Source: a virus. From it: a DNA stretch of 64,000 nucleotides. Position numbers and translations under genes: made by a program. Shown here piece by piece: positions 2,939 through 52,246 of the stretch (positions are counted from its first letter, which is position 1; each line of letters begins with the position of its first letter). The stretch covers positions 1 to 64,000 of IMG/VR virus record IMGVR_UViG_3300044908_000026; one strand, given 5' to 3'. The notes below the pieces were generated by a model. That model worked only from the letters and a program-made list of their open reading frames with translations, was not told the origin of the DNA and did no database searches.

Positions 2939-3265
2939 ATGTCTGTCGCAAAACTGTGGGCGCTCATCGTACTCGGGGCGATGCTCACCATCGTCGGAGA
3001 CACATATCTCAAGCGTAGCCACGGCCTAGATCGCCTCGGCGATTTAGGGCTTGGGCTCTGCTTTTACATGCTCGGCTGTGTTCCCGTTATTTTTGCCTTT
3101 AAACAGGCAGATTTCAGCGTAGTCTTCATCGTTTGGGAATCAGTCACCCTTGTCATAGCGATCGGGATCGGTCGGATACTGTTCGGGGAAGCCGTCACCT
3201 TAGATCGATTGCTCGCCGTCGCCTTAGCAATTGCGGCGTTGATTCTCAGTGCTCGAGGTGGATGA
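2939..3265 (+). CDS. SMR-type small membrane transporter
   Basis: 108 aa with four hydrophobic segments (about residues 4-22, 35-53, 58-77 and 85-104). The pattern after TM3, WESVTLVIAIGIGRILFGE, and the final helix match the small multidrug resistance/EamA half-transporter plan. The usual early acidic residue may be Asp21, near the end of TM1. SMR proteins work as dimers in the inner membrane and export cationic compounds. A transporter with its own AT-rich promoter inside an early phage operon looks like a moron. The topology call is firm; the substrate is unknown. Confidence 0.7.
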   Translation: MSVAKLWALIVLGAMLTIVGDTYLKRSHGLDRLGDLGLGLCFYMLGCVPVIFAFKQADFSVVFIVWESVTLVIAIGIGRILFGEAVTLDRLLAVALAIAALILSARGG

Positions 3266-4645: not shown

Positions 4646-4818
4646 TCCTACGTTACTACCGCAACGAATCCGGCTTCCACGGGCGATTGAAGGATCGCCC
4701 TGAGATTCAGGCATCAGGCGAGAACCTTATCAAGATGGTCGGCGCGGTGCGGCTGGCGATGCAGGAAGCTGGCGAGGATGCCACAGTGGAAATCCAGATT
4801 GAGGAGGTATCGCAATGA
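4642..4818 (+). CDS. Small protein, unknown
   Basis: 58 aa, linked by ATGA to both neighbours. The sequence (MILRYYRNESGFHGRLKDR, then LIKMVGAVRLAMQEAG and an acidic end) is unlike any family I know. Its 3' end carries the strong GAGGAGGT ribosome binding site of the C-S-x repeat gene. Confidence 0.6.
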   Translation: MILRYYRNESGFHGRLKDRPEIQASGENLIKMVGAVRLAMQEAGEDATVEIQIEEVSQ

Positions 4819-5729
4819 CTTGGCTAGCAGACGCTCGCGGCAACAAATGTTCCGTGGAATATTTCGGCTCGAAAGAGGCCGCGCAAGCGGCGCTTGACGG
4901 CCTGAAGGATTGCGAAAACACCACTAACTGTTCGGGCTGTTCGGACTGTTCGGACTGTTCGCGCTGTTCGGGCTGTTCGGACAGTTCGGACTGTTCGCGC
5001 TGTTCGGGCTGTTCGGGCTGTTCGGACTGTTCGCACTGTTCGCACTGTTCGGGCTGTTCGGACTGTTCGGACTGTTCGCGCTGTTCGGGCTGTTCGGGCT
5101 GTTCGCACTGTTCGCACTGTTCGGGCTGTTCGGGCTGTTCGGGCTGTTCGGACTGTTCGCACTGTTCGCGCTGTTCGGGCTGTTCGGACTGTTCGGGCTG
5201 TTCGCGCTGTTCGGACTGTTCGCGCTGTTCGGGCTGTTCGGGCTGTTCGGACTGTTCGGGCTGTTCGCGCTGTTCGGGCTGTTCGGACTGTTCGGACTGT
5301 TCGGACTGTTCGCGCTGTTCGGACTGTTCGGACTGTTCGCGCTGTTCGGGCTGTTCGGGCTGTTCGGGCTGTTCGGGCTGTTCGGGCTTGGAAAACGCCG
5401 CACCTGTGGCTGGCGCTGCGCCTAAGATTCCGGTCATCCCGGTGGTTGCGGATCTGCACAAGCGCATTTATGAGGCCGCATCTCGACCTGAAGCGCTGGA
5501 CATGACTGCGTGGCACACCTGCAAAAAGACGCACTGCCGCGCCGGTTGGGTGATTGCGTTGGCTGGCCCTGAGGGGCGCGCATTGGAGCAGAGATTCGAT
5601 ACGAGTCTTGCGGCGATGAAGATTTATGATGCGAGTTGCCCTGGTTACAAGATCAATCCCGCGCGGTTCTTCGACTCCAATGAGGACGCTTTAGCAGACA
5701 TGAAAAAGTTGGCAGAGGCATCCCAATGA
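4815..5729 (+). CDS. Cysteine-rich C-S-x triplet-repeat protein
   Basis: 304 aa with three parts. Residues 1-38 are a small N-terminal domain (MTWLADARGNKCSVEYFGS) and residues 39-191 are 51 tandem C-S-x triplets. Residues 192-304 are a conserved-looking C-terminal domain with MTAWHTCKKTHCRAGWV. The triplet's third residue is only Gly (21), Asp (16), Arg (9) or His (5), and one Cys is replaced by Ser. From memory, similar N- and C-terminal domains flank Cys-rich repeats in other phage and bacterial proteins, function unknown. A Cys every third residue could give a metal-binding or disulfide-stacked solenoid. The strong Shine-Dalgarno site GGAGG implies good expression. Confidence 0.85.
   Translation: MTWLADARGNKCSVEYFGSKEAAQAALDGLKDCENTTNCSGCSDCSDCSRCSGCSDSSDCSRCSGCSGCSDCSHCSHCSGCSDCSDCSRCSGCSGCSHCSHCSGCSGCSGCSDCSHCSRCSGCSDCSGCSRCSDCSRCSGCSGCSDCSGCSRCSGCSDCSDCSDCSRCSDCSDCSRCSGCSGCSGCSGCSGLENAAPVAGAAPKIPVIPVVADLHKRIYEAASRPEALDMTAWHTCKKTHCRAGWVIALAGPEGRALEQRFDTSLAAMKIYDASCPGYKINPARFFDSNEDALADMKKLAEASQ
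4929..5387 (+). repeat. 51 tandem 9-bp units in the C-S-x gene
   Basis: 459 bp made of TGTTCG followed by GGC, GAC, CGC or CAC. Only two positions of the nine vary (G or C, then A or G), apart from one TGT to AGT change in unit 7. Length in multiples of nine keeps the frame, so the array can expand or shrink without breaking the gene. Because the unit contains no stop in any frame, all six frames are open across it. Confidence 0.95.
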
Positions 5730-8453: not shown

Positions 8454-8528
8454 ATGATCGAGGGTGCTACTGACTCCAGCCGCGCGGCACGCGCGGCGCG
8501 ACGCGCAAGCAAGAAAGGGACGCGATGA
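8454..8528 (+). CDS. Tiny ORF before the RNA ligase gene
   Basis: 24 codons, extremely basic (SSRAARAARRASKKG). Its TGA overlaps the RNA ligase ATG. It is supported only by position and overlap. Confidence 0.3.
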   Translation: MIEGATDSSRAARAARRASKKGTR

Positions 8529-9553
8529 GGCAACTTGCAACAATTCAAGTAGTAACCGACGTGCAGCCGATTGAGAATGCGGACGCCATTGAGAAGATTC
8601 GCGTCCTTGATTGGTGGTGCGTGTCCCGAAAGGGAGAGTTCTCGAAGGGCGACCGATGCGTGTATTTTGAGATCGATTCCCTTTTGCCTGCATCTCATCC
8701 AGCATTTTCGTTTCTCGAAAAGGGAAGCCGCAAGGTGACCGTGCTATTGGATGGAGGCGCGACCGCTGAGGGCTACCGCCTAAAAACGGTGCGGTTGCGC
8801 GGCCAGATTTCGCAAGGTTTGGCGTTGCCGGTGAGCGCATTCGCGTTAGGAGTTGGGGTCGGTTCCGATGTTTCCGAAATCCTCGGCGTAGTCAAGTGGG
8901 AGCCGCCCATCTCAAAGCAACTGGCCGCCATTGCCCGAGGTCCGTTCCCATCCTTCATCCCTAAAACAGATGAGGAGCGCGTGCAAAATCTCGGAGATAC
9001 GATCAAGGCCCATGAGGGCGAGACGTTCTATGTCACCGAAAAACTTGACGGAAGTTCTGCCACATTCTACCGCACAGAGGAACGCTTTGGTGTTTGCAGC
9101 CGGAATCTTGATTTACTGGAAGGGAACATGTACTGGAACGTAGCGAAGGCACTTGATCTTGAATCGAGAGTGCCGGTCGGTTTCGCAATTCAGGGTGAGA
9201 TTATCGGTGAATCCATCCAGGGAAACCCCCTCAAACGCAAAGGTCACCAACTTTACGTTTTCAATGTCTATAACATCAACGAAGCGCGATTCCTGGATTT
9301 CGAGGACTTCATTATCTTCTGCACAGAGAAGGGCCTCCCTAACGTCCCGGTGGTTGATGCTGGATTGCTTCTTCCTGGAGACGCGGCTGCGCTGGTGGAG
9401 ATGGCAGATGGAAAGAGCCTACTGACACCAGAAGTTGATCGCGAAGGGCTGGTATTCCGTCCGTTGCGCGAGAAACGCGAACAGATGCGAGGCTCGGAGC
9501 AACGGCTTTCATTCAAGGCAATCTCGAACAAATATCTGTTGAAGGCTGGCTAA
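8525..9553 (+). CDS. RNA ligase, Rnl5/DRB0094 type
   Basis: 342 aa. The N-terminal domain (residues 1-130) has the pattern of the Deinococcus radiodurans ligase family: LATIQVV, then IENADAIEKI and KGDRCVYFEIDSLLP. Motif I is EKLDGSS (residues 172-178, Lys173 the adenylation site), motif III lies around QGEIIGES (223-230), motif IV is EGLVF (307-311) and motif V SFKAISNKYL (329-338). These ATP-dependent enzymes join 3'-OH and 5'-phosphate ends of RNA, often at nicks. All catalytic motifs appear intact. It is one of two unrelated RNA ligases in this operon. Confidence 0.88.
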   Translation: MRQLATIQVVTDVQPIENADAIEKIRVLDWWCVSRKGEFSKGDRCVYFEIDSLLPASHPAFSFLEKGSRKVTVLLDGGATAEGYRLKTVRLRGQISQGLALPVSAFALGVGVGSDVSEILGVVKWEPPISKQLAAIARGPFPSFIPKTDEERVQNLGDTIKAHEGETFYVTEKLDGSSATFYRTEERFGVCSRNLDLLEGNMYWNVAKALDLESRVPVGFAIQGEIIGESIQGNPLKRKGHQLYVFNVYNINEARFLDFEDFIIFCTEKGLPNVPVVDAGLLLPGDAAALVEMADGKSLLTPEVDREGLVFRPLREKREQMRGSEQRLSFKAISNKYLLKAG

Positions 9554-9555
9554 TA

Positions 9556-10197
9556 ATGACACCCGAGATCATCACTACCGAAGCCCAGCTGAAGGAGATC
9601 GAGAGGCGGGCACTATCGGCAAGCTCCGGATCAGGGCATTTTTCGAAAACTAATCGCTCATCAAACCCTGTTATCAACATCATGTTGCCGTGCGTCCAGG
9701 ATAGTCCCAATCTGGTCGCCAGCCTACGAGCGGCCTGGGCGCAGCGCGACGAAGCACTCCGTATTTGCCAGAAGCACGCTTTCGATTGCGGATGGGCGCA
9801 AAGCCGGTTGAACAACGAAGTCGCAGCAAACGAGCGGCTGTGCGCGGAGATCGAGAAGCTGCGGAAATCGGATGGTGTGGTGAGTCGCAACATGATCATC
9901 GCGGCGCTCGCGTGTGCGTTCGTCATCATGACGGCTTTCGCATTGGCGCTACGTAGTCAGGGGATTCGGGACGCAGCGGAAAGTGAGCAGCGAGTTAAGG
10001 AATTTCGCACTGATGCTGAGGCCGAGATCGTGCGTCAACGTCAACGCGGGGATGAGTGGAAATCAGACTTCGGAGTGTGCCTGAAGAAAGCGTGGAACGA
10101 CGAAGTGGAACTCGACCGCCTGCGCCGGAATCGGGCGATATTGGAACCGTTTATCCGCGAGGGAAGATTAGTGATCGTACAAGAAAGGGAACCATAG
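9556..10197 (+). CDS. Membrane-anchored coiled-coil protein
   Basis: 213 aa. A cytoplasmic-type N-terminal part with helices (residues 45-110) is followed by one strongly hydrophobic segment (about 113-133, IIAALACAFVIMTAFALAL) and a long charged coiled coil (QRVKEFRTDAEAEIVRQRQR). The ATG has no strong ribosome binding site, two bases after the ligase stop. The function is unknown; the architecture resembles a membrane-tethered scaffold. Confidence 0.65.
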   Translation: MTPEIITTEAQLKEIERRALSASSGSGHFSKTNRSSNPVINIMLPCVQDSPNLVASLRAAWAQRDEALRICQKHAFDCGWAQSRLNNEVAANERLCAEIEKLRKSDGVVSRNMIIAALACAFVIMTAFALALRSQGIRDAAESEQRVKEFRTDAEAEIVRQRQRGDEWKSDFGVCLKKAWNDEVELDRLRRNRAILEPFIREGRLVIVQEREP

Positions 10198-10556
10198 TGG
10201 CGAAAGCGAAACAGGAAGAACAAAAACCGCAGACCGATTTTCTGGCTACGATTCTCGACATGCGGGCGGGAAAAGTAGCGAGCGACATTAACCAGAAGTT
10301 CAACACGGTGCTAGACGCCGTGATCGCGACCGGCGGGAAAGGCGAGATCAACCTGAAGATAAAGATCAAGCCATCCGAGTTTGGCGAAGGCGGCACGGTC
10401 GTTCAGGTTCAGGCGTCTCACGAGATCAAGGCAAAGTCGCCAGAGCTTGTCACTGGACCGAGCACGTTTTTCGTGTCGCGCGACGGCACACTGACTCGCA
10501 GCGACCCGGCGCAGCAGGCGATGTTCGAGACGGAACCAATCCAGGAGGCGAAGTAA
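10197..10556 (+). CDS. Hypothetical protein upstream of DUF2303
   Basis: 119 aa from the GTG at 10197, which overlaps the TAG of the previous gene and follows AAAGGGAACC. The ATG at 10056 in the same frame would lie deep inside that gene. It shows a beta-rich centre (EINLKIKIKPSEFGEGG) and a variable tail. It is adjacent to the DUF2303 gene and may be a partner. The function is unknown. Confidence 0.65.
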   Translation: MAKAKQEEQKPQTDFLATILDMRAGKVASDINQKFNTVLDAVIATGGKGEINLKIKIKPSEFGEGGTVVQVQASHEIKAKSPELVTGPSTFFVSRDGTLTRSDPAQQAMFETEPIQEAK

Positions 10557-11402
10557 ATGGAATCGATCAACAAAGAAGCGATCACGGCAATCGTTGACTT
10601 GGCGCTCAAGGGGACTGTTCCACAGGCCGTTCCTGGCGGCAACATCCCTTATGCGCTGGAAGTCCTACCGGGCGGCGGTACGCATGTGCGGCCACTGACG
10701 GACCTGATTTTCAATGAGCACTCAGCTAAACCGGATCGGATCAAAACGAACGTTGCTGTGGGTGATGTTCATTCTTTCTTGGACTACTGGACGCTGTTTT
10801 CCGACCCGAACAGTCGGGTGTTCGCCGATGAGAACACTTCGCAAATCCGTGCGATCCTCGACTATCACGGTGCCGGCGAAGGGTCGCCACGGTGGGGATC
10901 GCACGTCCTTGTGCTGGCACCGAAGTTGTCCGAGGAGTGGACAGCGTGGACGGGCAAAAACAGCCAGCCGTTCACGCAACAGGCATTCGCGGAGTTTCTG
11001 GAGCAGAACTGCATGGATGTCACGACGCCATCGCCGGCCGATATGGTCGAGATCGCTAACGACCTGCAAGCAACAACGCAAATCGAGTTCGGTTCTTCGC
11101 AGCGACAGAGTTCTGGCCAGGTGCAGCTCAAATACGTCGAAACCGTCAGGGCCACAACGGGGTCCAACGTAATCGACGTGCCGGAGCGGTTCAAGATCAG
11201 CATTCCGGTGTTCGTCGGTGGCGATAAAGTGCCGATGGAGGCGTTCCTGCGCTTCCGGCCGAAGGACGGCAAGGTGACCTTCCACTACACGCTGATCCGT
11301 CCATACGAGGTGAAGCGCGCGGCATTTCAGGCAATGTCGGCGGCGGTGCAGGGCGGCGTCGGCGACTCGAAGATCATCAACGGCGAAGCTGTCAACAGGT
11401 AG
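10557..11402 (+). CDS. DUF2303 (YfdQ-like) protein
   Basis: 281 aa, full length for the family. Typical DUF2303 features are FLDYWTLFSDPNSRVFAD near residue 70, a YHGAGEGSPRWGSH segment near 103 and the C-terminal VPMEAFLRFRPKDGKV / FHYTLIRPYEVKRAAF. The family is common in prophages and phage early regions, and its function is not established. It starts immediately after the previous TAA. Family recognition is strong. Confidence 0.85.
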   Translation: MESINKEAITAIVDLALKGTVPQAVPGGNIPYALEVLPGGGTHVRPLTDLIFNEHSAKPDRIKTNVAVGDVHSFLDYWTLFSDPNSRVFADENTSQIRAILDYHGAGEGSPRWGSHVLVLAPKLSEEWTAWTGKNSQPFTQQAFAEFLEQNCMDVTTPSPADMVEIANDLQATTQIEFGSSQRQSSGQVQLKYVETVRATTGSNVIDVPERFKISIPVFVGGDKVPMEAFLRFRPKDGKVTFHYTLIRPYEVKRAAFQAMSAAVQGGVGDSKIINGEAVNR

Positions 11403-11404
11403 TC

Positions 11405-11806
11405 GTGACCACCCGCCTTTCAGCTTCGGAGGCAGCGGCGTTAATCGGAGGACGCCGCTCGAAGTACGGTGTGGATCGTAGCGAGGCGGGGAAGTCGGCG
11501 CGGACGTATGGCGGCCGCATTTTCGACAGTGTGGCTGAAATGAGGTATTGCCAACTGCTCGACATCCGCAAATTGGCGGGAGATATTCAGGATTTTTGGT
11601 GCCAGCAAGATATTCCGCTAGTGGTTAACGGAATCAGAGTGGCGAAGCTGATCGCGGATTTCAAAATCTTGCATCTCGACAACACCATCGAGTTTTGCGA
11701 CGTAAAGGGGTTCGCCACTCCTGCGTTTCGTCTCAAACTGAAGTTGCTGAAGGCCTGCCATCCGAATTTGAGATTTACCGTTGTGCCTGCAAAGGAGATT
11801 CGATGA
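11405..11806 (+). CDS. DUF1064 nuclease-like protein
   Basis: 133 aa from a GTG at 11405. It contains KYGVDRSEAG, FDSVAEMRYCQLL, IADFKILHLDN and EFCDVKGFATPAFRLKLKLL. This matches DUF1064, a restriction-endonuclease-like family with a PD-(D/E)xK-type core (here the Asp of IADF, the Glu of EFCDVKG and its Lys). It may cut branched DNA as a junction resolvase, which would suit the nearby annealing protein. Confidence 0.8.
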   Translation: MTTRLSASEAAALIGGRRSKYGVDRSEAGKSARTYGGRIFDSVAEMRYCQLLDIRKLAGDIQDFWCQQDIPLVVNGIRVAKLIADFKILHLDNTIEFCDVKGFATPAFRLKLKLLKACHPNLRFTVVPAKEIR

Positions 11807-11907
11807 CAAAAGAAGAGATGGCCGCAGTCCGCAAAGTGAAGCGTGAGATTTCGCGGCTGGGGCGGCTATGCGAACTCGCGGCCAATGCTCTGGAGAAAGC
11901 TCTGTGA
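11803..11907 (+). CDS. Small helical protein
   Basis: 34 aa. The ATG at 11803 overlaps the previous TGA and has AAGGAG upstream. It is one basic amphipathic helix pair (AAVRKVKREISRLGRLCELA). The function is unknown. Confidence 0.5.
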   Translation: MTKEEMAAVRKVKREISRLGRLCELAANALEKAL

Positions 11908-12113
11908 TCTGGGTTTGGCTCTCTCGCATCACGCCAGTCCGCTGGTTCACGGAGAACATGGACCGCCCGCAATGCTGGCGCTACCGCATCGCGTTCCCGG
12001 TTTTCTCGAATGCTTGGTGGTATGGTGACCATTGTGTAGGGCTTCAGCACTTTCCGCACTTCACGGCCGCCGTGGATCGCGTATACGCTGGAAAGTCGAT
12101 CATGCTGCCATGA
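11904..12113 (+). CDS. Small aromatic-rich protein
   Basis: 69 aa from the GTG at 11904, overlapping the previous TGA. It is unusually rich in Trp, Phe and His (IWVWLSRITPVRWFTENM, then SNAWWYGDHCVG). It is not clearly membrane-spanning. No family is recognised. Confidence 0.5.
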   Translation: MIWVWLSRITPVRWFTENMDRPQCWRYRIAFPVFSNAWWYGDHCVGLQHFPHFTAAVDRVYAGKSIMLP

Positions 12114-12196
12114 CCGCACTCGCCGAACAACCGCTTCGCGCCCGCGAACTCGTCAAAGACGGAGTTTGGCAGGTTCCACCAGAATTGCGCCCGTAG
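12110..12196 (+). CDS. Tiny ORF
   Basis: 28 codons, with the start overlapping the previous TGA. The sequence (QPLRARELVKDGVWQVPPEL) reads like genuine protein. Its function is unknown. Confidence 0.4.
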   Translation: MTALAEQPLRARELVKDGVWQVPPELRP

Positions 12197-12208
12197 GGAT
12201 GGCAGAGC

Positions 12209-12787
12209 ATGGCAGTGCGCGAAAGCGTTGAAACCACTACGCAAACCAGAACGAAAATCCTTCGGGTTACGGAAGTACTGGTTCAGGAGCAGCATCCCGA
12301 TGTGTTGGCGACCATGGAATCCCTGCCAGAGCCGGTAGACCTCGGCCCTCCACTGATCGAGCTGATTGCGCCCAAGGCGATTGCTGCGCCGCCAAGCCCT
12401 ATTCCTGCCGACAGCCCGGAGTTGGTACAGGAGTTGGTGGACCTGCATGTCCAGACCTCAGCCGACGGCACCGAGTTGGAGTTCGACCGCGAGTGGGAGC
12501 GGATTTGCGACATCGGGTGGGAATTGAGAAGGCATCGTGAGATCAAGGCTCAGGTCGATGAACTACTTGGATCTTGGATCGAACGCAATCGCGATAAGCT
12601 GCGTCATGTCGGTCTGAATTCTGCACCAATCCGAGAACTGTACTCAGTTTTTCACGCCGCGCTATTCGATATGTCCTCTGCGGCAGCGGCGAAACTATCC
12701 AGGGAAGTTGATGAGGCGCGATACGGAAAGTTTTGCGCCAAGTGTGGCTATCGAGAAAAGGATTGCGAATGCGAGAAAACTGCATGA
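12209..12787 (+). CDS. Hypothetical protein with C-terminal cysteines
   Basis: 192 aa. A variable, Pro-rich N-terminal third is followed by helices (LVQELVDLHVQ, then KAQVDELLGSWIERNRDKLR) and a Cys-rich end, KFCAKCGYREKDCEC, which could be a zinc knuckle. It overlaps the next gene by ATGA. The function is unknown. Confidence 0.65.
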   Translation: MAVRESVETTTQTRTKILRVTEVLVQEQHPDVLATMESLPEPVDLGPPLIELIAPKAIAAPPSPIPADSPELVQELVDLHVQTSADGTELEFDREWERICDIGWELRRHREIKAQVDELLGSWIERNRDKLRHVGLNSAPIRELYSVFHAALFDMSSAAAAKLSREVDEARYGKFCAKCGYREKDCECEKTA

Positions 12788-13026
12788 CCCAGTCCACCCT
12801 CCCTCTCGCTGGCCCGCACGCGCTGGAAGCGGAACTGCGCGAACGCTGCCCGTTGCTGGAGATCGAGTGCCGCACCGAGTTGAGGGCGCGGTTTGATTGG
12901 AAAATTGCCGAAGGTCGGCAAGACAGCGCGGTCGTCGTCAAGGCCGAACGGCAGTTTTGGTCCCAGGTGCGCACCGACTTTATTGAGAAGTATGACTGCT
13001 GGGCGGCTGAACGGGAGAACACATGA
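12784..13026 (+). CDS. Hypothetical protein
   Basis: 80 aa from the ATG overlapping the previous stop. It is a charged helical protein with three Cys, ending EKYDCWAAERENT. It is immediately upstream of, and coupled to, the AAA ATPase. No family is recognised. Confidence 0.6.
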   Translation: MTQSTLPLAGPHALEAELRERCPLLEIECRTELRARFDWKIAEGRQDSAVVVKAERQFWSQVRTDFIEKYDCWAAERENT

Positions 13027-14849
13027 GCGAAGAGTTGGAATTAGCAGAACTGTTGGCAAAAACACCGACGCAAGATCAGGGTAATCGCGCCGTGCCGCGC
13101 ACGGCGGGGGAGTCTCCTGCTCCGCCGCGACCGGCTACCGCGACGGATGTGGACTTCGCCCAATGGCAGATTGGTCCTAATGGAAAGTTCCGCCCTGGCG
13201 CAAAGACACGCGAGAGGCTTCCGAGTGGAATTTATCGCCTCGGTGTGGATGATTACGGCCCATACGTTGAACTCATCTCCATCGCATCGGACGACATCAT
13301 CGAATTGCCGGAGCCAGCACATGTGCGCGTTCTGAGTGGCATTCGGAAGTTCTGGTCCTCGCGGGACCGCTACGAGCGCCACGGGCTGCTATACAAGCGC
13401 GGCGTGCTGCTGTGGGGGCCTCCAGGCGGCGGCAAGACGACCACCACTCAGTTGCTCATGACGGAGATCGTCAAGGCGCACAACGGCATCGTATTGATCG
13501 CGCACGATCCGAATTTTACGGTAACGGCGTTGCGTTTCCTGCGGCGGATTGAACCGCTTCGCCCGTTGATCGTCGTATTCGAGGATGTGGATGAGATTGT
13601 CTCTAATTTTGGCGAGCACGCACTGCTTGCGGTTTTGGACGGAGAACACCAGACAGACAACGTGGTTTACGTGGCGTGCCCAGCTCCAGAGGTGAGAATT
13701 CTAAAGGCGGATTTGACTTGGGTGCGAGCGGACACTTTGAAGGCAGGGGATGAATTGATAGCATTCGATGAAGAAGGTCCGCAACGCAAATATCGGACTT
13801 CTGTTGTAAACTCTTGCCCAATAATTTCAAAACCTAGATACAGAGTGACGACGGAACAGGGAAGTCTAATTGTTAGCGTGGGACATCCGTTCTTAGTAAA
13901 ACGCAGCACTGGCAGATGGCACGAGTGGAAGGTTGTCGAGAGTCTCAAAAAAGGGGACAAGCTAGCGTCGGTCGGCGACACATGGGAAACCGACGAAAGC
14001 AGAGATGGTGGCTATTTGGCTGGGCAGTATGACGCGGAAGGATCTCTTAATTTCTCAACCAATCAGCATGGTTCATTAAGCTTTAGAGTTTGTTGGGGGC
14101 AAGTAATAGGAGCGCTATCAGAGAAGGTTTCGGATTTGTTGAGGGCTCGTGGCTACAAAATTGCTGCATTCAACAAGAAACCAGTGATGGGGAGAATCGG
14201 CAAGGGGGTCGGGAAATTGGGTCCGCACCAACCGCAAATTTCCTTCACTGTGAATGGAGGCAAGTGGGAAAACCTGAGACTACTAGGTTCATTGAGGCCA
14301 AGCCGTTTACTGGGTGACAAACGACTGCGTACAGCATGGGAGGGAAATCGTCTTTGCCCTAAGTACACAAACGTATTGTCAGTCGAATATCTTGGAGAAG
14401 GCGAGGTGGTGGCGCTGGACACTACGACCAAAACTTTTATTGGCGAAGGACTTCTCCAGCACAACACGACGAATTACCCGGAGCGGCTGGGCGCGCGCAT
14501 CGTCAATAGGCCGTCCCGCTTCGATGAGCGCATCAAGATCGGGATGCCGTCGCCGGAGGCGCGGTTCGTATATCTACGAAAAGCTGTCGGAGAATCCGAT
14601 GTGCCGCTGGAGAAGTGGGTCAACGATACCGAGAATCTGAGCATCGCACATCTACGGGAATTGGTCGTGGCAATCCTCTGTCTTGAGCAGGATTACGACA
14701 CCGTGCTGGCGCGCCTGAAGGCGATGGAAATTATGCCGAAGCCTGAAGACGGGTTCAAACGCAAGCAGTACGACATGCAACAAGCGCAGGCACGTGTGGC
14801 TTCGACGTGGACGTTTACCCCTCAAACGGGAGGCGGGAATGGCCTATAG
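13023..14849 (+). CDS. BCS1-like AAA ATPase interrupted by an intein
   Basis: 608 aa precursor. The host protein has a Pro-rich linker (residues 25-45), a beta domain (46-100), Walker A WGPPGGGKTT (131-140), Walker B LIVVFEDVDE (182-191), a sensor-1 strand ending VVYVA at 218, and after the intein TTNYPERLG and the arginine-finger region NRPSRFDERI. Splicing would give a 345-aa BCS1-type AAA ATPase, which usually unfolds or remodels protein complexes. The intein sits directly before the sensor-1 Thr-Thr-Asn, so the unspliced precursor should be inactive. It is coupled by ATGA to its upstream neighbour. Confidence 0.85.
   Translation: MSEELELAELLAKTPTQDQGNRAVPRTAGESPAPPRPATATDVDFAQWQIGPNGKFRPGAKTRERLPSGIYRLGVDDYGPYVELISIASDDIIELPEPAHVRVLSGIRKFWSSRDRYERHGLLYKRGVLLWGPPGGGKTTTTQLLMTEIVKAHNGIVLIAHDPNFTVTALRFLRRIEPLRPLIVVFEDVDEIVSNFGEHALLAVLDGEHQTDNVVYVACPAPEVRILKADLTWVRADTLKAGDELIAFDEEGPQRKYRTSVVNSCPIISKPRYRVTTEQGSLIVSVGHPFLVKRSTGRWHEWKVVESLKKGDKLASVGDTWETDESRDGGYLAGQYDAEGSLNFSTNQHGSLSFRVCWGQVIGALSEKVSDLLRARGYKIAAFNKKPVMGRIGKGVGKLGPHQPQISFTVNGGKWENLRLLGSLRPSRLLGDKRLRTAWEGNRLCPKYTNVLSVEYLGEGEVVALDTTTKTFIGEGLLQHNTTNYPERLGARIVNRPSRFDERIKIGMPSPEARFVYLRKAVGESDVPLEKWVNDTENLSIAHLRELVVAILCLEQDYDTVLARLKAMEIMPKPEDGFKRKQYDMQQAQARVASTWTFTPQTGGGNGL
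13677..14465 (+). mobile_element. Intein with LAGLIDADG-like motif
   Basis: 263 aa, from Cys219 to Asn481 of the ATPase. Block A is CPAPEVRIL followed by LKAGDEL, block B is VSVGHPFLV, block F reads SVEYLGEGEVVALDT and block G ends FIGEGLLQHN, with the penultimate His and terminal Asn present and Thr as the +1 residue. A single GYLAGQYDAEGSL (precursor 331-343) looks like one LAGLIDADG motif, and I see no clear second one, so the endonuclease is probably degenerate or small. The intein DNA also looks more AT-rich than its host gene. Confidence 0.9.
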
Positions 14850-15006
14850 CCGTAGACCACCCATCCCCACCTCGGAGAAGATCCGAGCCGCGATTGAGCG
14901 GCTGGTGGAGATTAACGCGGGTATCTCGGGGTCGGCGCATCTAGAAATTTCGCTCGTACTGGATGCGCTGAAGCAGACTGTGCGAGCCGTGGAGGGTCGC
15001 CGGTGA
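14839..15006 (+). CDS. Small helical protein
   Basis: 55 aa from the ATG at 14839 (ribosome binding site GGAGGCGGG), overlapping the end of the ATPase gene. The helices (SEKIRAAIERLVEINAG, then LEISLVLDALKQTVRAV) could dimerise. It overlaps the RNA ligase start by four bases. The function is unknown. Confidence 0.6.
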   Translation: MAYSRRPPIPTSEKIRAAIERLVEINAGISGSAHLEISLVLDALKQTVRAVEGRR

Positions 15007-16061
15007 TTTACGAACATTTCGCCGCGTTGCCCGATCTAATCGAGCGCAAGATGATCTCCGCGCGAAAGCATCCCGAGTTACCGCTGTGGATTTACAACTA
15101 CACTGTGCTCGCGCAGTTCACTCCGATAGCCGAGTGGACTCCAGCGATGTGTGATTGTCGCGGCCTGATTCTTGATGAGTCTGGAAACGTAGTTGGGCGT
15201 GCGTTCCGCAAGTTCTGGAACTATGAGCAAGTTCTTGATCGCATTCCAGTCTCCGAGCCATTCGAGGTATGGGAGAAATTGGACGGCAGCTTAGGGATCG
15301 TGTGCTTTTACCAGGGCAGGCGCGTGGTGTCCACGCGCGGCAGTTTCGAGTCCGAGCAGGCTCGATGGGCCGCGCAGTTCATGGACGCGCATTATCCAGA
15401 TTTCGCGCCGGAACGTGAGCGCATGAGTTATCTTTTCGAGATTATTTTTCCGAGCAACAGAATCGTCGTCGATTACGGCAAGCGGGAGGACATGGTCCTG
15501 CTATCGATCATGGACAATCTCGGTTTCGATCTGGATGGATACTTTGAAGCTGAGATGAGATTCCCAAAGGCGCGGCGCTACGATGGAATTCTAGAATACG
15601 AGTTTCTCGAAACCCTCGGGGAGTGCCCTGAGCACGCAGGTAACGAGGGCTTTGTGCTGCGTTGGCCGTCTGGTTTTCGCGCGAAGGTCAAATTCGCAGA
15701 ATATAAACGCCTGCATCGCCTAATTACGTCGTGCAGCACACGGACGATCTGGGAACTGCTACGCGCAGGGAAGGATACCTCCGAATTGATGGACCGCGTT
15801 CCTGAAGAGTTCGGAGTGTGGGTACGCGAGCAGATAGCGAGCCTTACGGAAGCACACAATCGGCTGATGGCCTGGGCGCACAGCACGTTTCAGGCTGCTC
15901 CCCAAAACGTAAGCCGCAAGGACTTCGCGGAGTACTCCAAGAAACAAACTCAGCCCGCATTACTGTTTTTATTGCTCGACGGCAAACCGATTGATGATGC
16001 CGTCTGGAAACTTGTTGAACCGAAGTGGGCGACGCCCTTTAGGAGAGATGCGGATGAGTAA
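15003..16061 (+). CDS. RNA ligase, T4 Rnl1-like
   Basis: 352 aa from the GTG at 15003, overlapping the previous TGA. It has the Rnl1-type lead-in CRGLILDE (52-59) and RAFRKFWNY (66-74), motif I EKLDGSLG (91-98, Lys92 the nucleotidyl-accepting Lys), motif III LFEIIFPSNRIVV (145-157), motif IV EGFVLRW (216-222) and motif V RAKVKFAEY (227-235). The C-terminal 120 residues would form the tRNA-binding helical domain. Rnl1 seals 5'-phosphate/3'-OH RNA ends, in T4 the anticodon loop of cleaved tRNA. It overlaps the end-healing kinase gene by eight bases, as expected for a repair pair. Confidence 0.88.
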   Translation: MIYEHFAALPDLIERKMISARKHPELPLWIYNYTVLAQFTPIAEWTPAMCDCRGLILDESGNVVGRAFRKFWNYEQVLDRIPVSEPFEVWEKLDGSLGIVCFYQGRRVVSTRGSFESEQARWAAQFMDAHYPDFAPERERMSYLFEIIFPSNRIVVDYGKREDMVLLSIMDNLGFDLDGYFEAEMRFPKARRYDGILEYEFLETLGECPEHAGNEGFVLRWPSGFRAKVKFAEYKRLHRLITSCSTRTIWELLRAGKDTSELMDRVPEEFGVWVREQIASLTEAHNRLMAWAHSTFQAAPQNVSRKDFAEYSKKQTQPALLFLLLDGKPIDDAVWKLVEPKWATPFRRDADE

Positions 16062-16914
16062 GACGTTGTTCATGATGCGCGGACTTCCGGCCTCCGGCAA
16101 GAGCACGCGCGCCAAGCAGATGCTGAAGGACTTCGGAACAGGCAACGCGAAGCGCGTAAACAAGGACGAATTGCGGATTCTGCTTGATGACGGCCACTGG
16201 TCTGGGCCGAACGAGAAATTCCTTATCGGGGTTCGCGATCACATCATTATCTCTGCGTTGAATGCTGGCAAGCACGTCATCGTAGACGACACGAACCTAG
16301 CGCCTAAACATCAGGCTCGCTTGCGCGAGCTGGCCCTTCTAGGTGGGGCGTCGTTTGAGATTGTGGATTTTTCCCATGTCGGTGTTGATGAGTGCATTGA
16401 GCGCGACCGCAAGCGCCCCAATTACGTCGGCGAAAAGGTCATCCGCGGCATGTGGGATCAGTTCTTGCGTCCAAAGAGGGGAGCGGCGCCGGCCGATCCG
16501 TGGCTTCCATCGTGCCTGATTGTGGATGTTGACGGGACCGTAGCGCAGATGAACGGGCGTGGACCGTTCGAGTGGAGCAGGGTCGGAGAGGATCTACCAA
16601 GAAGGCCCATAATCCGCGCGGTGCTGGCCTATGGCGTTCCCTGGATCTTTATGAGCGGTCGCGACGAATGTTGCCGAGCAGCCACAGAAGAGTGGCTGAC
16701 ACAGTATTTCGGAGCGCCTGGTCCGCTCCACATGCGGCCCGCTGGCGACTCGCGCAAGGACGCGATAGTGAAGCGCGAACTCTATGAGGCTCATATCCAG
16801 GGAAAATACAACGTGGAGGCAATTTTCGATGATCGCCCGCAGATGATCCGAGAATGGCAGGCGCTTGGCTTCGCGGATCGGATTTTCAACGTCGGCGATG
16901 GAACGGAGTTTTGA
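16054..16914 (+). CDS. T4-like polynucleotide kinase/phosphatase
   Basis: 286 aa using the ATG at 16054 (AGGAGAG site); an upstream ATG at 15991 lies within the ligase gene. The N-terminal kinase has P-loop GLPASGKST (10-18), the Asp of NKDELR (Asp38) and DDTNL (78-82). The C-terminal phosphatase is HAD-type with IVDVDGTVA (156-164; Asp158 and Asp160), MSGRDE (200-205) and FDDRPQ (258-263). The enzyme removes 3' or 2',3'-cyclic phosphate and adds a 5' phosphate, making ends ready for the ligase it overlaps. Length and motif order match T4 Pnkp. Confidence 0.9.
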   Translation: MSKTLFMMRGLPASGKSTRAKQMLKDFGTGNAKRVNKDELRILLDDGHWSGPNEKFLIGVRDHIIISALNAGKHVIVDDTNLAPKHQARLRELALLGGASFEIVDFSHVGVDECIERDRKRPNYVGEKVIRGMWDQFLRPKRGAAPADPWLPSCLIVDVDGTVAQMNGRGPFEWSRVGEDLPRRPIIRAVLAYGVPWIFMSGRDECCRAATEEWLTQYFGAPGPLHMRPAGDSRKDAIVKRELYEAHIQGKYNVEAIFDDRPQMIREWQALGFADRIFNVGDGTEF

Positions 16915-18021: not shown

Positions 18022-18206
18022 GCGCGCCACGAATGCAGCACTGTTTCAATTGTGGGGAAGCACTCGGGGTTTACAAGAGCTACGCCGGAGACATCGAAGT
18101 GTGCGGCAAACCGGAATGCCTGCGTGAGGCCCGCAACGCAGAGCGACAGCAAATCGAAGAGGCGCAGTATGCCGCTGAGCGCGACGATTGGAGCACGTAC
18201 CGATGA
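18018..18206 (+). CDS. Small zinc-finger-like protein
   Basis: 62 aa from the GTG overlapping the previous TGA. HCFNCGEALG and EVCGKPECLREA supply four Cys in a zinc-ribbon arrangement, followed by a charged helix. The function is unknown. Confidence 0.6.
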   Translation: MSAPRMQHCFNCGEALGVYKSYAGDIEVCGKPECLREARNAERQQIEEAQYAAERDDWSTYR

Positions 18207-18691
18207 GTATCCATCGCTACATTCTGAGCCGCACCTGGAATACCCAGAAGCGCGGCGTCGTCAACTTCATCATGCTCAACCCATCGACCGCCGACGATGT
18301 GTTCGATGACGCGACTATCCGCCGATGCGTTGGATTTGCAAAGCGGTGGGGATTCTCAGGTTTGGCGGTGACCAACCTATTCGCGTTTAGGGCGACCGAT
18401 TCGAGGGAATTGGAACGGCTCGCTGGTGTGGATTTAGTCAGGGCGATTGGCGAAGAAAACGACGACACAATCCAACGGTGCGCCAGACACTCCGATGCAA
18501 TCGTGTGCGCGTGGGGCAATCGCGGAAGCCTGCGGGGGCGGGACCTTCAGGTCGCCGGTTCTCTCCTGGATGCCCACGAACTGCTCTGTATTCGCCGGAG
18601 TAAGGATGGTAATCCAGTTCACCCCGTGCGCGAGGCTTACACTGATGGACCGATCCCATTCATGTACAAGCGCATCGGAGTCTGTGTATGA
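18203..18691 (+). CDS. DUF1643 protein
   Basis: 162 aa from the ATG overlapping the previous TGA. Family landmarks: NFIMLNPSTADD (near residue 22), TIRRCVGFAKRWGFSGLAVTN, LFAFRATDSREL, then VCAWGNRG and the final FMYKRIG. DUF1643 proteins occur in phages and bacteria, and their biochemical role is not established. Length and motifs look complete. Confidence 0.85.
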   Translation: MSIHRYILSRTWNTQKRGVVNFIMLNPSTADDVFDDATIRRCVGFAKRWGFSGLAVTNLFAFRATDSRELERLAGVDLVRAIGEENDDTIQRCARHSDAIVCAWGNRGSLRGRDLQVAGSLLDAHELLCIRRSKDGNPVHPVREAYTDGPIPFMYKRIGVCV

Positions 18692-50783: not shown

Positions 50784-51716
50784 TTAGCTGACGTAACTGT
50801 ATCCGTTCATCAACGGGTAATCGATCCGGCGCGGCCTGTACCGCTGCGGTCTTACTGGAATACCCTGTTTGGCTTTGAGCATGGGAACGATCAAAGCACG
50901 AAGAAACCCGCCGCCTCCGTCCGCGACTCCGCTTTCCCCGTAAGCGTCCATGCGCAACTGCGGACCCATCGGCAGCTGCCGCTTTGGGCTGAAGTGCGCC
51001 GCCGTCGCCGTTTTCAGGAAATTCAATTCGCGCCCGTTGGCGAAACCAATCACACCCGAAGGGGGAGGGTCTTCGCCCGCGTAGTACTGAATCCAAAGCT
51101 GGCGAACCTCGCTCGAGCCCTGAAACCAGAGGATATTATCCTGCCAGCACCAGAACCCGAGCGTCTGACCAACAGGGCCGGATGGAATACTCTGCTGGGG
51201 CAGCATCGGGATAAAGCTATCCGCAGACGACATCACGGTGCCGCCCGTGCCGTTCGACCCGCACACAATCGAACCGTTCAGCGTAAAGGCCGTTGGACTC
51301 GTCACTGTGATGAGCCAGTCCCGATTGATCCAGCCAGGCACGCCCTGCACGCCGTTCAGTTCCGCCCGCGAGCTCGTATTCAATCCGTGCGGAGCCGCCG
51401 TCGTGACGGTCTGCGGAGTTCCATCGGTGGTCGAGGTAATCGCCACGCTTGAAACGGAACCGCGCTCCCAAATCTTGTACGGCTCATCGAAGTCCGTCAC
51501 CCCAAGGGCACTCGGAAATAGCGCGCCGGTATTCGCGGACAGACTGAAATAAACCTCGCGCTGAATCACCGGCAACTGGAGTTTGATCGACAGGTCCATC
51601 ATCTCGCCGTAAGAGGTCTGAAAGTCGTCGATGATTTCCTGCGTAATCTCGCCGCTCGCGTCCCCAAGCGCGGACTGTGCGCCGGTTAGTATATCCTGGA
51701 CGGTGCAATCGCTCAT
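50784..51716 (-). CDS. Head-tail connector-like protein
   Basis: 310 aa. The N-terminal helical part (TVQDILTGAQSALGDASGEIT, then FQTSYGEMMDLSI) and a central beta domain (residues 80-165) resemble head-completion/adaptor proteins of short-tailed phages. The C-terminus is basic. Genome position between capsid and tail-hub genes fits. Confidence 0.6.
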   Translation of the reverse strand: MSDCTVQDILTGAQSALGDASGEITQEIIDDFQTSYGEMMDLSIKLQLPVIQREVYFSLSANTGALFPSALGVTDFDEPYKIWERGSVSSVAITSTTDGTPQTVTTAAPHGLNTSSRAELNGVQGVPGWINRDWLITVTSPTAFTLNGSIVCGSNGTGGTVMSSADSFIPMLPQQSIPSGPVGQTLGFWCWQDNILWFQGSSEVRQLWIQYYAGEDPPPSGVIGFANGRELNFLKTATAAHFSPKRQLPMGPQLRMDAYGESGVADGGGGFLRALIVPMLKAKQGIPVRPQRYRPRRIDYPLMNGYSYVS

Positions 51717-52246
51717 TGACGCCTCAATCGCGCGATCATATCTGACTGCGACGCCTTCAGCGGAATCCGCGTCTTTTTCTCGTTCTTGTCGGAAAACATC
51801 ACGTGATCGACCCGCGCGCTCTTACCGGCCAGTGAATCACCATCTTTCTCGGCCAGATGCCGCCCCATCCCCTTTTTCACATAAGCCAGCGTGACATGCG
51901 GCTTGAAGTCTGGAAATGTGCTCGTGTTCTCAGTTCCGTTCGAGATCGCGTGATGGAGTTCGTGCAACTGCGGCGAATCCACTTCAGCCTTGACCACATC
52001 GCCGTGTCCTGAATCGGGGAAATGAGATGTGCGCCCCATTCTGATGTCGAACTGAGGGTGCCTCGATACGATGCCCCTAACCGTACTCGGATCGTCTGAA
52101 TGCAGGCCGTACTTCACCGTGACATGCGGCTCCGTCTCTCGCCCCTTATCCACCAGCGCCCAGTCCGGTATCTTCGCCGCCGCGCGCCGGACGTGATCGG
52201 CCAGCGCGGGCGGTAGATTGAACTGGGTTGAGGCGAGAGAGGCCAT
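51713..52246 (-). CDS. 2H phosphoesterase (2'-5' RNA ligase-like)
   Basis: 177 aa. Two catalytic H-x-T motifs, EPHVTVKYGL (His41) and KPHVTLAYV (His117), 76 residues apart, define the 2H phosphoesterase fold. Members open 2',3'-cyclic phosphates of tRNA ends or cleave cyclic nucleotides; phage Acb1-type enzymes of this fold disarm CBASS. It lies among virion genes and overlaps the connector gene by ATGA. It could serve RNA repair with the kinase and ligases, or counter-defence. The fold call is strong, the substrate is open. Confidence 0.8.
   Translation of the reverse strand: MASLASTQFNLPPALADHVRRAAAKIPDWALVDKGRETEPHVTVKYGLHSDDPSTVRGIVSRHPQFDIRMGRTSHFPDSGHGDVVKAEVDSPQLHELHHAISNGTENTSTFPDFKPHVTLAYVKKGMGRHLAEKDGDSLAGKSARVDHVMFSDKNEKKTRIPLKASQSDMIARLRRQ

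Follow-up and report, generated by a model that had tools for sequence, protein, structure and literature searches.

A probable two-module RNA-repair cassette of known kind in an uncultivated mid-sized phage

The virus record IMGVR_UViG_3300044908_000026 encodes a T4 Rnl1-like RNA ligase, a T4 Pnkp-like kinase/phosphatase, and an Rnl5/DRB0094-type ligase, which probably make up an RNA-repair cassette of known kind, built of two modules: Rnl1 with Pnkp, and Rnl5. The window comprises 64,000 bases of the 68,029-base record, which bears a 127-base direct end repeat; based on this repeat, the record probably represents the complete genome (∼67.9 kb) of an uncultivated phage.

The RNA-repair gene cluster and its genome

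The recognizable genes between 8525 and 16914 all lie on the plus strand, and many of them overlap or abut. An AAA+ ATPase gene is linked to the Rnl1-like gene by a small ORF of 55 amino acids (14839-15006, plus strand, sharing its frame with the ORF at 14794-15006), which overlaps the former by 11 nt and the latter by 4 nt; the Rnl1-like gene in turn overlaps the Pnkp-like gene by 8 nt. Promoter-like and terminator-like sites in 8525-16914 showed no excess over shuffled sequence. The overlapping genes fit a single transcription unit with coupled translation and, as far as arrangement goes, the single strand, the overlaps, and the unremarkable number of promoter-like and terminator-like sites agree with the one operon of the original prediction. 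A neighbor within this stretch, a DUF1064 protein at 11405-11806, matches a Holliday-junction resolvase family.

The first of the three enzymes is an ATP-dependent RNA ligase of 342 amino acids (8525-9553, plus strand) with an OB-like N-terminal domain followed by a nucleotidyltransferase domain, matching PF21189 (the N-terminal PHA02142 OB domain) and PF09414, respectively. It matches TIGR02306 (RNA_lig_DRB0094) over residues 3 to 340 (E 1.7e-59, 201 bits against a cut-off of 151) and the Naegleria Rnl5-type ligase NgrRnl (PDB ID: 5cot, E 2e-72), with active-site residues K173, D175, E225, E307, and K331 corresponding to K170, D172, E227, E312, and K326 of NgrRnl. By analogy, the phage Rnl5 is expected to seal 3'-OH/5'-phosphate nicks in RNA. 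Rnl5-type ligases are also common on large Chitinophaga contigs (L128-L138, L146), where they are 45 to 48% identical to the phage protein.

The Rnl1-like ligase (15003-16061, plus strand, 352 amino acids, GTG start) has PHROG 562 as its best family match (E 7e-50) and also matches PF09511 (E 2.5e-11) and T4 Rnl1 (PDB ID: 2c5u, E 2.7e-7). It scored only 33 bits against NCBIfam TIGR02308, the T4 RnlA equivalog with a cut-off of 242, and we therefore describe it as Rnl1-like and not as an RnlA ortholog. An AlphaFold model of the protein (mean pLDDT 87) identifies T4 Rnl1 as the closest solved structure (PDB ID: 5tt6, E 5e-15, about 19% identity), and second by fold comes the ligase domain of the fungal tRNA ligase Trl1. 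Residues R53, K70, K92, E146, E215, K228, and K230 correspond to R54, K75, K99, E159, E227, K240, and K242 of T4 Rnl1. Two further T4 residues, F77 and K119, reported to be essential in T4 Rnl1, are replaced by W72 and R112, positions at which the relatives (A1) vary too. The Pnkp-like protein (16054-16914, plus strand, 286 amino acids) combines an N-terminal P-loop kinase with a C-terminal HAD phosphatase, matches PHROG 505 (E 1e-76) and T4 Pnkp (PDB ID: 1ltq, E 6e-24), and is identical to T4 Pnkp at 15 of 15 residues checked.

These matches bear out the three enzymes that the original prediction had named at 8525, 15003, and 16054, the last of them overlapping its upstream neighbor. The intact motifs claimed for them hold for the catalytic residues checked in all three enzymes but not for F77 and K119 of T4 Rnl1, and the catalytic lysine is present in both ligases (K173 in Rnl5 and K92 in the Rnl1-like protein). 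The two ligases had also been called unrelated, which is too strong, as both carry the same KxDG nucleotidyltransferase motifs.

The genome around these genes offers few landmarks. No DNA-level match to known phages was found over the first 25 kb of the window, a phage terminase is detectable by remote similarity only, and the lineage appears as a mid-sized one almost devoid of recognizable virion genes. The terminase and other minus-strand genes lie far from the plus-strand RNA-repair cluster. A scan of bacterial genomes with the terminase, made in search of the host, found none, and scans of viral contigs returned nothing for the Rnl1-like protein and a single fragment for the terminase, leaving no close relative that shares the cassette for comparison. 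We detected no tRNA gene in the whole phage genome and no match to Rfam families or structured RNAs in the window, and RtcB, the RlaP nucleotidyltransferase, and KptA, which were sought in the same genome, were not found.

Three other genes in the window deserve mention in their own right. An ORF of 304 amino acids at 4815-5729 consists mostly of Cys-Ser-x repeats, a 9-bp unit occurring 51 times at 4928-5388, and 2939-3265 encodes a small multidrug resistance (SMR)-type membrane protein (PF00893, E 3e-8). On the minus strand, 51716-52246 encodes a 2H phosphoesterase that has two HxT motifs, both intact, matches PF13563, and scores above the cut-off for the anti-CBASS protein Acb1; judged on these matches, it is a possible second counter-defense gene. 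We left it out of the RNA-repair cassette because it sits in the minus-strand block and also matches Acb1.

Kinase, ligases, and tRNA genes across virus records

We compared 50 virus records chosen for carrying Rnl5, which are often fragments and are not phylogenetically independent. Rnl1 was present in 20 of them and a polynucleotide kinase match in 22, and the kinase was found in 19 of the 20 records with Rnl1 as against 3 of the 30 without (Fisher p about 1e-9, uncorrected for kinship and fragmentation among the records). Where Rnl5 and Rnl1 occur in one record, they lie on the same strand in 18 of 20 cases and within 6 kb of each other in 11 of 20. Records with all three genes include G043 and G044, together with G035, G037, and G038, which resemble Aeromonas T4-like phages as judged from their Aeromonas matches. 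Since the kinase tracks Rnl1 and not Rnl5, we take Rnl1 and Pnkp to be the tRNA-repair pair and Rnl5 to be a separate module, and the two ligases probably act on different breaks. The placement of both ligases and Pnkp in a single repair pathway finds no support here, Rnl5 usually occurring without a polynucleotide kinase.

On this evidence, tRNA repair by the Rnl1-like ligase and Pnkp is likely. The assignment agrees with the original prediction and draws on homology, on the catalytic residues, on the overlap of the two genes both here and in the Arthrobacter phage Bauer, on the co-occurrence of kinase and Rnl1, and on a fold near those of T4 Rnl1 and Trl1. Counting against it are the distance of the Rnl1-like protein from T4 Rnl1, at about 19% identity, and its score below the RnlA cut-off. 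By analogy with the T4 homologs, a host nuclease would cut tRNA in the anticodon loop, Pnkp would strip the 2',3'-cyclic phosphate or 3'-phosphate and phosphorylate the 5'-OH of the tRNA halves, and the Rnl1-like ligase would rejoin the halves via a ligase-AMP intermediate, allowing phage translation to continue on the repaired tRNA. Rnl5 would seal base-paired 3'-OH/5'-phosphate breaks independently of Pnkp, its targets probably being tRNA or other structured RNA. As the phage lacks tRNA genes, the substrates would likely be host RNAs. We are less sure of the role of Rnl5 than of tRNA repair by Rnl1 and Pnkp.

It is possible but not probable that Rnl5 serves tRNA maturation or quality control and not counter-defense, traveling with phage tRNA genes and the ribozymes that process them; in the present phage it would then be a remnant of such a tRNA and ribozyme set or would act on host tRNAs. 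Among phages with theta ribozymes, 54.5% carry a DRB0094 ligase, an enrichment of 140-fold, and most theta ribozymes in phages are located at tRNA genes (PMC10879173). In the Arthrobacter phage Racecar, Rnl5 likewise lies amid tRNA genes, and we found a tRNA gene within 1 kb at 13 of 78 Rnl5 loci against 7.0 expected, near-duplicate loci included. However, the available flank contains no tRNA gene at 57 of the 78 loci, and the window phage itself has neither a tRNA gene nor an Rfam RNA match. We retain the reading of Rnl5 as a repair module, one that stands apart from Rnl1-Pnkp and is linked to tRNA genes in some phages.

A different substrate is also conceivable. DRB0094-type ligases require RNA on the 3'-OH side but can tolerate DNA on the other, so that Rnl5 might mend RNA-DNA junctions or nicks in hybrids during phage replication in place of cleaved RNA. 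The resolvase-like DUF1064 neighbor would suit such a role, but Rnl5 is found associated with tRNA genes and with Rnl1, which speaks against this reading, and we regard it as unlikely. Very improbable is a main function of the Rnl1-like protein in virion assembly, with RNA ligation secondary, as for T4 gp63 in tail-fiber attachment: the full name of PHROG 562, 'RNA ligase and tail fiber protein attachment catalyst', makes a non-repair role possible, but the nucleotidyltransferase residues are all intact, the gene overlaps Pnkp in the plus-strand cluster far from the terminase and minus-strand genes, and co-occurrence with a kinase would be unexpected for an assembly factor.

An intein-bearing AAA+ ATPase near the ligases

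Between the Rnl5 gene and the Rnl1-Pnkp genes sits a BCS1/YjoB-like AAA+ ATPase gene (13023-14849, plus strand; PF00004, E 8e-7) that is interrupted in its active-site region by an intein of 263 amino acids (13677-14465, plus strand). The intein starts with Cys and ends with His-Asn before Thr, occupies the conserved insertion site VYVA/TTNYPE, and matches NF038136 (E 4.5e-10) and PF14890 (E 5e-4), each below its cut-off. The fold of the AAA+ family is nearest to those of Bcs1 and YjoB. A scan with a relative identified 66 viral ATPase loci, and none of these homologs, which are 303 to 359 amino acids long, carries an intein-sized insert.

An Rnl5-type ligase lies within 4 kb at 31 of the 66 ATPase loci, in every case upstream of the ATPase gene and on its strand; at 4 of these 31 the two genes directly abut or overlap. 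An intact Rnl5-type match elsewhere in the record was found for only three more ATPase records. Thus, in 31 of the 34 records with both genes the ATPase lies no more than 4 kb downstream of Rnl5, as against 1.4 expected by random placement, the records not being independent of each other. The AAA+ family falls into four groups at 60% identity, and a ligase neighbor is seen in three of them. Individual loci show variations on this arrangement. At L157 (G058:33522-33608), a 32-codon Rnl5-type remnant immediately upstream of the AAA+ gene suggests that an ancestral Rnl5-ATPase pair has decayed; on a Cloacimonadota MAG contig (L149:166-2191), about 950 bases separate the two ORFs into which Rnl5 is split, and the AAA+ gene follows directly; and in a large phage record (L215), it is Rnl1 that stands directly upstream of the ATPase.

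Many members of the AAA+ family have no ligase, and Rnl5 and Rnl1 are both missing from the records of the five relatives closest to the window's ATPase (L111-L115). For this reason, we held the ATPase back from the repair system and treat it as a lead and not as a finding. In one of these records (L112), a nearby gene downstream of the ATPase resembles a terminase by eye. A DUF1643 protein encoded at 18188-18691 of the window shares 61% identity with a DUF1643 protein of L111, the phage record with the closest AAA+ relative.

The limited literature that we searched contained no description of a pairing of Rnl5 with an ATPase, and gene neighborhoods make the ATPase a possible undescribed partner of Rnl5-type ligases. 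We speculate that it could be a dedicated partner of the phage enzymes that pulls apart ribonucleoprotein, for example, or removes a bound nuclease, and thereby would let the ligase reach nicked RNA; we consider this specific proposal doubtful. The motor-like ATPase beside Rnl5 is the only fresh clue in a gene set that is otherwise already known, and its recurrence there offers a specific, testable starting point for working out the action of Rnl5.

Comparison with known RNA-repair systems

T4 uses Rnl1 and Pnkp in a tRNA-repair pathway (PMC3400036, PMC2610378), and its genome encodes a second ligase, Rnl2, in addition to these two enzymes (PMC3400036). In both the window phage and T4, a kinase-phosphatase and an Rnl1 ligase are thus accompanied by a further RNA ligase from a different family. 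The two phages differ in the second ligase, which is of the Rnl5/DRB0094 type in the window and is the nick-sealing Rnl2 in T4, and, unlike T4, the window phage has overlapping ligase and kinase genes and no tRNAs of its own. The window Rnl5 in turn matches the ligase of Naegleria gruberi and DRB0094 of Deinococcus over its whole length, sharing their domain architecture and active-site residues, but is phage-encoded.

Among phages, Racecar (MN234206) comes close in content, with Rnl5 (gene 161), an Rnl1-like ligase (gene 181), and a polynucleotide kinase (gene 183); protein identities to the window are 32 to 39%. In contrast to the window phage, Racecar has a 194-kb genome with many tRNA genes, and its Rnl5 gene is flanked by tRNA genes and separated from Rnl1 by about 13 kb. 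Both ligases are also present in the Arthrobacter phages Mimi and Talia1610. Bauer (OP580516) has the Rnl1-like and Pnkp genes overlapping in the same order as here, with proteins 38 to 39% identical and an overlap of 4 nt as against 8 nt in the window; no Rnl5 was seen within the 8.9-kb region of Bauer that was examined.

Several RNA ligases in one genome, together with kinase/HAD phosphatase enzymes, are also a feature of jumbo phages, such as BcepSauron with RtcB, Rnl1, and Rnl2, and a 2021 review proposed non-redundancy for the ligases of phages that have several (PMC7824862). The window phage shares this multiplicity with the jumbo phages but, at 67.9 kb, is not itself jumbo, and neither RtcB nor RlaP was found in it. 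The suggestion that a second ligase provides wider or substrate-specific repair is plausible by analogy and has already been published for phages in general (PMC7824862). Given T4, Racecar, the Aeromonas-type records, and this review, the original prediction restates an existing hypothesis, and the gene set is already known in kind and is not rare. T4 and many other phages mend host-cut tRNAs with such a toolkit, and with the present genome this T4-style set of RNA-repair enzymes reaches a new mid-sized phage lineage.
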